From contig WFSI01000038.1 of the NCBI GenBank assembly GCA_015486105.1, positions 1-40,895 of the forward strand: 40,895 bases of DNA, read 5' to 3'. This document shows positions 29,753 to 37,200 of the stretch, piece after piece. The first letter of the stretch is position 1, and each line of letters begins with the position of its first letter. This DNA comes from Aquificota bacterium (GTDB lineage: Bacteria > Thermosulfidibacterota > Thermosulfidibacteria > Thermosulfidibacterales > B14-G1). Under the pieces are notes generated by a model. It worked only from the letters and a program-made list of their open reading frames with translations. It was not told the origin of the DNA and ran no database searches. The position numbers were made by a program, and so were the translations under genes.

Positions 29753-31339
29753 ATGGAGCTTCGTGAGGCGGTGGAGCTTTTGGCCAAGGCTTTTAAGACT
29801 TATCAGGTCTATCCCCCAGGTCACGACCTTCGTCAGTCTTTTCTCTTTAGGCTTTACCAGGATCTGTCTTCGTTTTTAAAGAAGGAGGGCCTGGAACTTC
29901 ATATTGAAGAACTCAAAGTGCTCAGTGCCTCTGAGGAGGAGATCTTTGAAGGAGAAAAAAAGGACCCATTTCCCTGGCTCTTTTATAAAAACGGTCTTCG
30001 AGGGGTGACCATATTACCGGGTCTTACGTCTAATGAGCTGGATGCCTTTCTATCATTGGTAGTGGATAAGCCCAGTGATCTTCTTTATTACCTTTTGGAT
30101 GCGGGTTTGCCTCACATCATTTTCGAGGTGGCAGAATACCTTCTTTTGACGAACGAGGAGGAGATACCTGACTCCAAAGAATGGAAGCCTCCCGATGAAC
30201 CTTACACCTTTAACGGTTCAGACTCTTTTTCAATGGAAGTAGGCCTGGGGGGTTCGGATCTTACCCAGGAGGATACGGAGTATCTGGATAAGGCCTTGAA
30301 AGAAGAGGCAGAGAGAAATCATCTCTCTATTTACTTGGATATCATCCTCTCGGTTTTCACTATGGAGGATTACAAAGGGTTGGCTAAGGGGCTCATGAGG
30401 AGTGTAGAGTATTTTGCCATGGAGTCCTTAGGATTGGGGAACCCCTGGGCCGTATTAAAGCTGGTGAGGCATTTGGATGAGCTTAAGGAGGAGGGGGGGC
30501 TGGATCAAGAGAGGGCTTATATTTTAGAGGAGCTTATGGCTTCCTTGGGGTCTCCGGCTGCCCTTGATCTGTTGAAGAAGCATTACTCCTTCTCTTGGGG
30601 AGATACTTTGAAAGAGCTTTTATTTAGACTGGATCCTCCCCATACAGACAAGCTCCTTGAATGGCTTGAGGAAGAGAGACGAGACGAGGTAAAGGGTGCT
30701 TTGTTGGCCCTTCTAAAGATAAAGACAGAGGCCCTCCCTGCCCTTCTGATTTCCCTTTTTATGGAGGCCAAACCCAGGGCAAAGCGGGAAATCATTGATC
30801 TGGCCTGGGATTTTAGAGATCGGGAAGAATCCAGAAGATTGTTAGAGTTGGGTTTAGAGTCAGAGGATGAGAGAATTAGAAGGGCTGCTATGAAGGTGAT
30901 GCTAAGGATAGATCCTTCCACCTTGGATGCCCTTGTGGATAGATTTTTTAGCAGTGGGGAAGCCAACCTGAGGATTCTCCTTTTGGATACCATCAACGAG
31001 CTGGGTGGGGTGCCGTCTCTGGCTCCCATTTTATACCAGGAATTCTCAGAAGGGGATTTTGTAGAGAGGGACTACTTAGAGAAGCGCCTCTTCTTTACGG
31101 CCCTTGCCCTGTCCCATGGAAAGACCTTCAAAAGGGCCTTGGAAGAATTGTTGGCTGCAACCCCTGGATGGAGAATGAGGAAAAAGTGGGAGGAGACGGT
31201 AAAGATAGCGCTGACCGTGGCTGTCGACACGGATAGAATAGGCATGAGCGAGGTGAGGGGCGTGGTGGAGGCCTCTGGAAGCAAAAGGGCCAAAAGGGTG
31301 TGGGATACCCTTGTGGAAGCGAGAGAGGGGATACGGTAA
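29753..31339 (+). CDS. Helical-repeat (HEAT-like) protein with N-terminal YPPGH domain
   Basis: N-terminus AFKTYQVYPPGHDLRQSFLFRLYQDL...LRGVTILPGLTSNELDAFLSLV; C-terminal helical repeats (RREIIDLAWDFRDREESRRLLELGLESEDERIRRAAMKVMLRID). Start set at 29753. Confidence 0.7.
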   Translation: MELREAVELLAKAFKTYQVYPPGHDLRQSFLFRLYQDLSSFLKKEGLELHIEELKVLSASEEEIFEGEKKDPFPWLFYKNGLRGVTILPGLTSNELDAFLSLVVDKPSDLLYYLLDAGLPHIIFEVAEYLLLTNEEEIPDSKEWKPPDEPYTFNGSDSFSMEVGLGGSDLTQEDTEYLDKALKEEAERNHLSIYLDIILSVFTMEDYKGLAKGLMRSVEYFAMESLGLGNPWAVLKLVRHLDELKEEGGLDQERAYILEELMASLGSPAALDLLKKHYSFSWGDTLKELLFRLDPPHTDKLLEWLEEERRDEVKGALLALLKIKTEALPALLISLFMEAKPRAKREIIDLAWDFRDREESRRLLELGLESEDERIRRAAMKVMLRIDPSTLDALVDRFFSSGEANLRILLLDTINELGGVPSLAPILYQEFSEGDFVERDYLEKRLFFTALALSHGKTFKRALEELLAATPGWRMRKKWEETVKIALTVAVDTDRIGMSEVRGVVEASGSKRAKRVWDTLVEAREGIR

Positions 31340-32715
31340 TGGATGATAAAATGGACCAATGCGAGTTTGCCCATGTGCCCATAGTTTTTCTCAAGGTATT
31401 AAAGAACATCCAGGTTTATCCCAAGAAGCATCCCCTCATATCTCAAAGTCTGGACAGGTTTATGGCCTTGATCCAGGAGCACGAGGGCCTCTCCTTGGAG
31501 GTGAACAAAGGTTACCTGTATGTCAACACCGACAGGGTAGAGATTACGGCAGCCAATTATGTATTTATCAGGCTTACTATTCAGACCTTCAATATTATTG
31601 AACTGAGGGAGGTGGAGTTTCTCACGGGATTGGTGGAGAGAGAGCATCTCTATCGCTTTTTCTCAGCTATGGCCAAGGCAAAGAGCTACAATGAACTTTT
31701 GGCTCTTTTAGAGAAAGAAGGGGTAATAGGCGTGATCACAAGGCGCTCCTCAGAATCCTCTGAAGAAGGGGTTAGAGAAAGAGCCAAGAAACTGTATTTC
31801 CATACTATCAAGGTTATCAAGTCCTTTTTCGAAGGCAAAAAGAGGGAAGCATCCTTGATAAAGATGAAGGCGGCCGCCTCTTATTTGACGGATCTTTTGA
31901 GACACTCCGAAGAGGCCCTTATGGGTCTCACTGTCATAAAGAACTACGATGACTATACCTATAACCATTGCCTGAATGTGGCCATTCTATCCCTGGCCTT
32001 GGCTATGAGGACAGGGATGGAGAGGAGGCTCCTTGTGTCCTTGGGAACAGGGGCCTTGGTGCATGATATTGGGAAGGTTAAGATTCCTATAAGCATTATC
32101 AATAAGCCTAACAAACTGACGGATGACGATTGGATGATGGTCAAGCGCCATCCTATAGAGGGATTGTCTATGGTCCTGGACCAATGGGGAATCAGTAGGG
32201 ACATAGCCCATATCCTTCCGGCTATCGTAGAGCACCATCTGGGCATGAACTACTTTGGTTATCCCGAATGGTTGCGTAAGAAGGAGACCTCTATCCTTGC
32301 GGGGATCATACATGTCACCGATTTTTACGATGCCGTGACTACACCAAGGGTTTATAATAAGAGGCCTATGGCTCCTGTAGAGGCCATGCAGTACCTCTTG
32401 GATAACTCAGGGATAAGATTCAACCCCGTGCTGGTAAAACTTTTTCTCAATGTCATGGGCTTCTATCCTGTAGGTTCAGTAGTTAAGCTAAGCACGGGAG
32501 AATGGGCCATGGTGGTGGAAAAGCCCTCCCATTCCTCTTATTTGGATAGGCCCGTTGTGGTTGTGGTGGCCGATGAGAATGGAGACCCTCTGCCTCCCAG
32601 GAAGGTGAGCTTAGAAGACGGCGAAGTAAGAATAGTAGGAGCCTCTTCTCAATCCCCTTGGAACATGGGGCTGGACCCCATGGAAGTGGCCCTCTATTCC
32701 TTTGAGGAGCAATGA
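31339..32715 (+). CDS. HD-GYP domain protein with N-terminal YPxxHP domain
   Basis: NIQVYPKKHPLISQSLDRF N-term; GALVHDIGKVKIPISIINKPNKLTDDDWMMVKRHPIEGLSMVL; divergent VEHHLGMNYFGYP; VTDFYDAVTTPRVYNKRPM. Confidence 0.87.
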   Translation: MDDKMDQCEFAHVPIVFLKVLKNIQVYPKKHPLISQSLDRFMALIQEHEGLSLEVNKGYLYVNTDRVEITAANYVFIRLTIQTFNIIELREVEFLTGLVEREHLYRFFSAMAKAKSYNELLALLEKEGVIGVITRRSSESSEEGVRERAKKLYFHTIKVIKSFFEGKKREASLIKMKAAASYLTDLLRHSEEALMGLTVIKNYDDYTYNHCLNVAILSLALAMRTGMERRLLVSLGTGALVHDIGKVKIPISIINKPNKLTDDDWMMVKRHPIEGLSMVLDQWGISRDIAHILPAIVEHHLGMNYFGYPEWLRKKETSILAGIIHVTDFYDAVTTPRVYNKRPMAPVEAMQYLLDNSGIRFNPVLVKLFLNVMGFYPVGSVVKLSTGEWAMVVEKPSHSSYLDRPVVVVVADENGDPLPPRKVSLEDGEVRIVGASSQSPWNMGLDPMEVALYSFEEQ

Positions 32716-33653
32716 CTCCTTATCACAGGCTTCTTACCCATTGGGATACCCTTCTCAATGTTACCCAGAAGAGATGGGAGCGTTTCATTTCTTTAAGGGA
32801 TGCTCAGGTTAAAGACGAGGTCAGGGTGGGGGAAACAGAGGCAAGGGAGCTTTTTGAGAGGGTCTTTGAGGCCTTAAGGCGAATGTTGGGAGGGCCCGCT
32901 CTTCCCCCCAAGATGGTTTTTTTTCCTGCTATCTCTCGGATGAAGAGAAAGCTCGTATACCTTTCTTTAGGCCTGGCAATGGTGATTGTGGCCCTATTTT
33001 TGGTGGTGGTCTATATGGTAAAAATGAAGACCCTTTCCGTCAATGAGGGATACTACTGTATCCTTCCTATTCTCTTTGTGGCTCCTTTTCCTTGGACTAT
33101 GTATAGGCGTATCCGGGAGTATATGGATCAGGGGTCTTACTATTTAAGCCCGGGGGAGGTGGTTATTTACGATCTGTATAGGAGCCGCTTCCTGTCTTAC
33201 TGTACCCATGAAGTAGCCAGCTATCTGTTGGAGCGTGAGGGTCCCTCTTGGGAGTTTTACAGGGAGGGTTGGGCCAGGGGAGTTCAATATAATGTGACAG
33301 AGGATTTGATGGTAGAAGGTGAAGAGGGAGTGCCCCTTTCTTCCCTTCAACTCATGCTGGGAGAGCTTAGGTTGGCTTTGGAGTGGCTTTCCCGCCAGGG
33401 TAAGAAGGGACTCCCATCCTGGGTGAAAGCCCTGCCTGGTCCCTATTCCCCTTCGTGGTGGAAGGGATTTTTGGGCATAAACAGGGTTCCTACTCCTGAC
33501 GTCGTATCCCGAGCCCTGTCAACGGCTTATTTCCAGGTGTTGGAAGAGAAAGAGGACATAGGGGTGTACAGAGAGTACTTAGAGGGAAAGGTGGATGAAA
33601 GATGGCCCTTTGTGTCGGCAAATCCCCAGGACTGGGAAGAAACTGGCGATTAG
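32712..33653 (+). CDS. Membrane protein of unknown function
   Basis: Two predicted TM stretches (LVYLSLGLAMVIVALFLVVVYMV; YYCILPILFVAPFPWTMY); ATGA overlap with the HD-GYP gene. Confidence 0.65.
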   Translation: MTPYHRLLTHWDTLLNVTQKRWERFISLRDAQVKDEVRVGETEARELFERVFEALRRMLGGPALPPKMVFFPAISRMKRKLVYLSLGLAMVIVALFLVVVYMVKMKTLSVNEGYYCILPILFVAPFPWTMYRRIREYMDQGSYYLSPGEVVIYDLYRSRFLSYCTHEVASYLLEREGPSWEFYREGWARGVQYNVTEDLMVEGEEGVPLSSLQLMLGELRLALEWLSRQGKKGLPSWVKALPGPYSPSWWKGFLGINRVPTPDVVSRALSTAYFQVLEEKEDIGVYREYLEGKVDERWPFVSANPQDWEETGD

Positions 33654-36321: not shown

Positions 36322-37200
36322 CTATTGGTTTAAATCATAGGACCAGTAAATCTTAATGCCTTTTTCTTTAGTGTATTTCTCCACGTCTGGGGTGATGGTG
36401 TGGACCACGGCCACAGTGAGGATATGGTCTTCATGAACGCCTTCCAGGGATGAAATGAGTTTCACGTGCTTCATAAATTTATTTACCTCTCTTTTAGAGA
36501 GGCTTGTCTTGGCTTCCCCCAGAATGAGGACCTTCTCACCGTTTCTCTTGCCCCACCCATAGATGTTGATCTGGATGTATCTCTTGCCATCAGGTCCCAG
36601 AATATACTTTCTCAGCAGTCTGTCTTCTATTTGTAGATCCAGATCCCTTTTTAGGAGGATAGGAAGGGCCATGTAACTCTTGTTTTCTAACTCGTACCCC
36701 ACAGCATCGGACATGCTCTCCAGTCTCTTGCGGGTTTCGCTGTGATCCTCTACCAATTTGGTTAGCACTTTTTCAGTTTTTCTTTGGGCCTCTGCGAGTT
36801 GATCTACCCTGGCAGTGAGTTGCTCCAGTCTTTCTTCAGTCCTTTTCTGAGCCTCTGCGAGTTGATCTACCCTGGCAGTGAGTTGCCCCAGTCTCTCTTC
36901 AGTCCTTTTCTGAGCCTCTGCGAGTTGATCTACCCTGGCAGTGAGTTGCCCCAGTCTTTCTTCAGTCCTTTTCTGAGCCTCTGCGAGCTGATCTACCCTG
37001 ATGGTGAGTTGCCCCAGTCTCTCTTCAGTCCTTTTCTGAGCCTCTGCGAGCTGGTTCACTACTTCCTTGAGCTCCAGAAAATCCTCTCGCCTTACAGACT
37101 CTCCCACTACCTTCTGAATGGCCCTCGCCACCTTCAGAAGGGGACCCCTAAGCTCAGGGGGTAGCTCTTCAAAGGCCTCAAGCAATTCCACCTCTAACAA
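36322..37200 (-). CDS. Coiled-coil repeat protein with C-terminal nuclease-like domain (DUF3782-like), TTG start
   Basis: Heptad-rich 21-aa repeats QLAEAQKRTEERLGQLTARVD; C-term KVLILGEAKTSLSKREVNKFMKHVKLISSLEG resembling a PD-(D/E)XK E-x-K core. RBS AAGGAGG before TTG. Confidence 0.72.
   Translation of the reverse strand: MLEVELLEAFEELPPELRGPLLKVARAIQKVVGESVRREDFLELKEVVNQLAEAQKRTEERLGQLTIRVDQLAEAQKRTEERLGQLTARVDQLAEAQKRTEERLGQLTARVDQLAEAQKRTEERLEQLTARVDQLAEAQRKTEKVLTKLVEDHSETRKRLESMSDAVGYELENKSYMALPILLKRDLDLQIEDRLLRKYILGPDGKRYIQINIYGWGKRNGEKVLILGEAKTSLSKREVNKFMKHVKLISSLEGVHEDHILTVAVVHTITPDVEKYTKEKGIKIYWSYDLNQ
36788..37054. repeat. 63-bp in-frame tandem repeat (four units plus partial)
   Basis: GCCTCTGCGAG... 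starts at 36788, 36851, 36914, 36977 and 37040, exact 63-bp spacing with near-identical units. Confidence 0.95.

Follow-up and report, generated by a model that had tools for sequence, protein, structure and literature searches.

Do two adjacent genes whose products begin with the same unnamed domain encode the two parts of one signalling device? This question is raised by the window, a 40,895-nucleotide stretch of DNA from an Aquificota bacterium (contig WFSI01000038.1), in which the gene for a protein with helical repeats (A) directly precedes the gene for an HD-GYP protein (B), followed by a gene for a membrane protein (C). It is the common beginning of A and B that suggests a matched two-part device. 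The original prediction, made from the sequence alone, had described three genes with overlapping starts and stops, and all of its coordinates and overlaps are confirmed on the sequence. A GGAGG-type site lies just 5′ of the start of gene A, the start of B falls inside the stop of A (TAATG, 31337-31341), and that of C inside the stop of B (ATGA, 32712-32715). The genes and the domains of A and B are as follows.

29753-31339, forward strand: gene A (528 aa), N-domain and HEAT-repeat scaffold
29753-30142, forward strand: N-domain of A, residues about 1-130 (profile comparison, AlphaFold model)
30143-30253, forward strand: linker of A, residues 131-167, low confidence (pLDDT below 50) and probably disordered
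30266-31336, forward strand: HEAT-type helical repeats of A, residues 172-528 (AlphaFold model)
31339-32715, forward strand: gene B (458 aa), N-domain and predicted HD-GYP phosphodiesterase
31354-31764, forward strand: N-domain of B, residues about 6-142 (profile comparison, AlphaFold model)
31762-31929, forward strand: two long linker helices of B, residues 142-164 and 169-197 (AlphaFold model)
31930-32457, forward strand: HD-GYP domain of B, residues about 198-373
32479-32643, forward strand: C-terminal all-beta domain of B, residues 381-435 (AlphaFold model)
32712-33653, forward strand: gene C (313 aa), membrane protein resembling an HExxH peptidase with the second His lost; accessory and family-restricted

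A divergently oriented M24 peptidase gene precedes gene A, and a radical-SAM gene and then a TlyA-type methyltransferase gene lie 3′ of gene C. Elsewhere in the window, an open reading frame on the minus strand (36322-37200) contains near-identical 21-residue coiled-coil repeats (QLTARVDQLAEAQKRTEERLG).

The homology of the two N-termini had been judged by eye, and a BLASTP comparison of the single sequences (E 0.027) is suggestive only and too weak to stand alone. We therefore rely on profiles of the A and B families, gathered both among related genomes and across 85,000 species genomes. The first profile-profile comparison of the N-termini gives a match of 98.4% (E 5e-15, 129 columns), and independent full-length alignments give 98.8% (E 6.8e-17, 139 columns), with the match confined to the N-termini. 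A comparison built from 65 pairs reaches 99.7% (E 5.7e-27, 144 columns) while none of its controls (reversed, column-shuffled, HEAT and HD) exceeds 3.6%; its domain boundaries were taken from a joint profile, so that the 98.4% and 98.8% comparisons are the independent tests. Thus, the profile comparison is decisive, and A and B share an N-terminal domain of ∼130 residues.

Separate AlphaFold models of A and B (mean pLDDT 86.7 and 90.4) agree with this conclusion. In these models the two N-termini do not differ in fold, but have the same element order, a-a-b-b-(b)-a-b-a-a-b: two helices, three short strands of which the third is marginal in B, a helix, a strand, two helices and a strand. Common to both is the motif K....YPxxHP followed by G(I)...F..G(L)..EL..F. 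No Pfam model describes this alpha/beta domain; among the 20 families listed, each matches only one of 38 members (best E 5.5e-4). ACT_3, a weak match in one of the 38, was judged to be chance. No convincing chain was found when the N-domain profile was compared with PDB sequences, where matches are of low coverage or isolated; one of them, to a designed cytochrome trimer (8e-5, 36 columns), was likewise attributed to chance. DUF3391 gives no match at E values up to 1, either in B or in the 38 N-domains. Fold searches with the whole A and B models return mainly matches to the HEAT and HD-GYP parts and leave the N-domain unplaced.

Profiles and models also bear out the view that this module is joined to helical repeats in one protein and to an HD phosphohydrolase in the other. 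At the level of the family, A is a HEAT-repeat scaffold protein: HEAT_2 (PF13646) matches all 47 A-family members (best E 3e-37), although the window copy alone scores 18.4 bits, below the cut-off of 27.7, and the AlphaFold model of A contains helical repeats. HEAT repeats in general are protein-binding scaffolds. HEAT_2 links every family member to HEAT and alphaRep-type helical repeat proteins, from which A differs in carrying the N-domain, in having a dedicated HD-GYP partner and in the sub-threshold Pfam score of the window copy.

The HD part of B had been described as divergent, a label that does not really apply, since the binuclear HD-GYP metal site of B is complete and its GYP intact. 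Its seven metal ligands (H210, H242, D243, H271, H299, H300 and D328) are kept in 49-50 of 50 family members, and the GYP motif (G307, Y308, P309) in all 50. For comparison with PmGH of Persephonella marina (PDB 4MCW), whose active-site layout B resembles, equivalents of D183, H189, H221, D222, K225, H250, H276, H277, G284, Y285, P286, D305, D308 and R314 are retained in 49-50 of 50 members. Seven of the eight PmGH metal ligands, catalytic Asp183 and Lys225, and structural Asp308 are conserved in the B family. PmGH differs in having a GAF input domain and a trinuclear site with Glu185. The equivalent of E185 is Tyr in 48 of 50 B-family members (Tyr206 in the window, within the Y-T-Y cluster D-D-Y-T-Y-N-H), and the trinuclear-type Glu or Asp at this position is absent from the window copy of B. 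This tyrosine places B in the Y/F subfamily with a 'Y-T-Y' cluster, described as probably binuclear (PMC4159591). Binuclear HD-GYP enzymes catalyze one hydrolysis step (PMC8177086). Because every metal ligand of the binuclear 'Y-T-Y' class is kept, B is probably an active cyclic-dinucleotide phosphodiesterase that yields a linear dinucleotide.

B shares with Y/F binuclear HD-GYP enzymes the H...HD...H...HH...D ligands, HDIGK, GYP, the Arg314 equivalent and Tyr in place of Glu185, but stands apart from them in its unnamed N-domain, its obligate-looking HEAT partner gene, a loop of the form HHxxxxxxGYP rather than HHExxDGxGYP, and the base-contacting Lys317 of PmGH, which is not conserved among the 50 family members. 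In the window copy the loop reads HHLGMNYFGYP, with HH and GYP kept and E and DG not. The HHExxDGxGYP consensus is a motif of classical members only, and its loss does not exclude B from the HD-GYP superfamily. The nearest fold matches of the B model are HD-GYP enzymes (Bd1817, PmGH, DvhD and PA4781). Closest over the whole chain is Bd1817 of Bdellovibrio (PDB 3TM8, 3TMB, 3TMC, 3TMD; TM 0.65 by target, 329 alignment columns), which has the same HD-GYP fold and a binuclear iron site. In contrast to B, Bd1817 has neither the GYP tyrosine nor one of the Asp ligands; it does not act on c-di-GMP (PMC8177086). Sequence similarity between the two proteins begins only at the linker helices, and so gives no support for homology of their N-terminal parts.

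The substrate of B would most likely be c-di-GMP, cleaved to pGpG as by other Y/F-type HD-GYP enzymes, and every distant pair-bearing genome sampled encodes at least three GGDEF proteins. The presence of these proteins and the intact GYP motif of B both speak against c-di-AMP, 3′3′-cGAMP or pGpG as the substrate instead, which we consider improbable even though some observations point that way. B-family members do not conserve Lys317 of PmGH, cGAMP is a substrate of some HD-GYP proteins (PMC8177086), and two WOR-3-type pairs (L090 and L093) are directly followed downstream by folP and a gene for a CdaA-type diadenylate cyclase. At L090:7347-10208, and alike in L093, the order is the pair, folP, the CdaA-type gene and an S49 peptidase gene, a context assigned by Pfam on L090 and by equal gene lengths in L091, L093 and L096. 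However, in genome G017, which is 99% complete, the pair is present and a DAC protein absent, and c-di-AMP is thus not the general substrate of B. cGAMP is a possible one.

If A and B work together, their genes should not be neighbors in this genome only, and a conserved neighborhood had been predicted. It exists for A and B, across many phyla. Among N-domain HD proteins with enough upstream DNA, 65 of 66 directly follow an N-domain HEAT gene on the same strand, in contrast to none of the 35 HD-GYP proteins without the N-domain that were recovered by the same searches. The lone exception (L131) has a sigma-54 response regulator upstream of its N-domain HD gene. By record titles, the pair recurs in about ten phyla, including Zixiibacteriota, Nitrospirota, WOR-3 (Caldifarciminota), Stahliibacteriota, Desulfuromonadia, Syntrophia, Desulfobacteria, Elusimicrobiota, Eiseniibacteriota, Calditrichota, Armatimonadota, Acidobacteriota and others, although many of these records are metagenome bins and single placements may be wrong. 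Geomonas diazotrophica (L101) is a cultivable host. Within a sample of 60 genomes the N-domain is present in 19; the pair occurs in the genome of the window and four others of its family, split over two contig ends in G003, and in 12 of 51 distant genomes. Four sampled relatives from the same order but other families have no pair, and the distribution is therefore patchy. A plasmid-borne pair did not turn up: among plasmid records, none reaches 80% coverage of a Geobacter B protein. The genes flanking the pairs (two-component systems, folP-cdaA, radA, mfd, sugar-nucleotide genes, a CHASE2 kinase) have no theme in common. In Geobacter-type pairs (L125:7380-7964, L125:2931-4346), a convergent small HEAT-repeat gene lies downstream and a RadA-like gene upstream. 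Titles and abstracts of the open-access literature bring HD-GYP and HEAT repeat together only in a handful of unrelated papers, none of which deals with such a pair, although a description may have gone unnoticed. The two-gene HEAT/HD-GYP module with a common domain is real, old and widespread.

The third gene behaves differently. The original prediction had included a two-TM membrane protein in a dedicated signalling complex; C is not part of the conserved module. The product of gene C has one strong hydrophobic stretch (residues 82-100), with a second clear in some orthologues only. Homologues beside the pair are restricted to the bacterial family of the window (5 of 60 genomes, plus one weak match), and outside this family no gene C homologue adjoins the pair. 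The HExxH site is broken as well. The window copy reads HEVAS (residues 166-170), and the four operon copies read HEVAS, HEVAS, HELAV and HELAF, so that neither the second His nor a complete HExxH with third Glu ligand is found. Three divergent relatives away from A-B (L072:9435-10406, L055:13975-14898 and L051:1501-2358) read HEMAH(H), with GWAR and a preceding Glu in two or all three, as in zinc peptidases. Because these relatives keep HEMAHH and the operon copies have lost the second His, gene C probably encodes a membrane peptidase relative without catalytic activity, which would serve at most as a lineage-specific anchor in the membrane. A complex of all three proteins would be consistent with the A-B-C order and short overlaps kept in the family of the window. 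Nonetheless, we think such a complex very unlikely, given that C is missing beside pairs outside the family and that members of its own family lie apart from A-B (L072, L055:13975-14898, L051).

The shared domain occurs in other settings as well. Single HEAT proteins carry it in G011, G017, G022, G042 and G045, and since some N-domain HEAT proteins lack an HD partner (in G011, in G045 and in many cases in the phylum of G042), B is not a requirement for the domain. Each of the seven genomes sampled from that phylum (L178-L206) has 2 to 7 N-domain proteins; most are long HEAT proteins, and in some the domain lies in mid-chain. A 1204-aa protein (L167:3340-6951) places GGDEF and an AAA_16 ATPase in front of the N-domain and HEAT behind it; N-domain HEAT modules are thus associated with a c-di-GMP cyclase domain in this protein and with an HD-GYP domain in the A-B pairs. 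A 291-aa protein (L165:3501-4373) combines a partial N-domain with a C-terminal part that matches no known family.

A tree of 129 N-domains needs 3 label changes to part A-type from B-type domains, where shuffled labels need 43 on average; many of its inner branches have weak support. It is most simply explained by one old duplication, after which the copies would have been inherited as an adjacent pair. The distances measured in the HEAT parts correlate with those in the HD parts (Mantel r 0.755, 0 of 2000 shuffles), as would also be expected from the species history common to A and B, and the nearest neighbor is identical for the two parts in 43 of 65 cases.

These data bear on what the shared domain does. 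It might be a ligand- or signal-sensing module, such that A and B respond to the same signal in one pathway without touching and adjacency provides co-expression only. Occurrence of the domain alone with HEAT repeats and with GGDEF-AAA_16 is what a generic sensory module would show. We regard this explanation as unlikely, since the two genes are strictly paired in one order and their N-domains parted into A and B types a single time, long ago, with no mixing visible, which suits subunits of a complex better; nor was a conserved polar pocket recognised in the N-domain sequences. We lean, with moderate confidence, towards A and B being the two subunits of a dedicated cyclic-dinucleotide signalling complex, a phosphodiesterase and its scaffold with paralogous N-domains. 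In such a complex the N-domains would bind each other as a heterodimer or mixed oligomer, and thereby hold phosphodiesterase B on the HEAT scaffold, which might bring the enzyme to a client. Alternatively, a client bound to the HEAT face could turn B on or off, its effect being relayed by the N-domain and both linker helices.

A broader proposal is more tentative. The N-domain may be a new domain for protein interaction and the basis of a widespread signalling system, in which each HEAT scaffold binds its matching HD-GYP protein through paired N-domains and a two-gene cassette, found in about a quarter of the distant genomes sampled (12 of 51), provides local, client-specific removal of a cyclic dinucleotide; related N-domain HEAT proteins might bring in further enzymes, GGDEF cyclases among them. 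It is an open question how a single cell directs its many c-di-GMP enzymes to separate targets. If the proposal is correct, a phosphodiesterase with its own scaffold would be a compact and testable answer, with a fixed two-subunit complex acting as the local signalling unit. A name and a predicted function would be gained for a domain that Pfam lacks and for thousands of genes now annotated only as 'HEAT repeat protein' or 'HD domain protein'.
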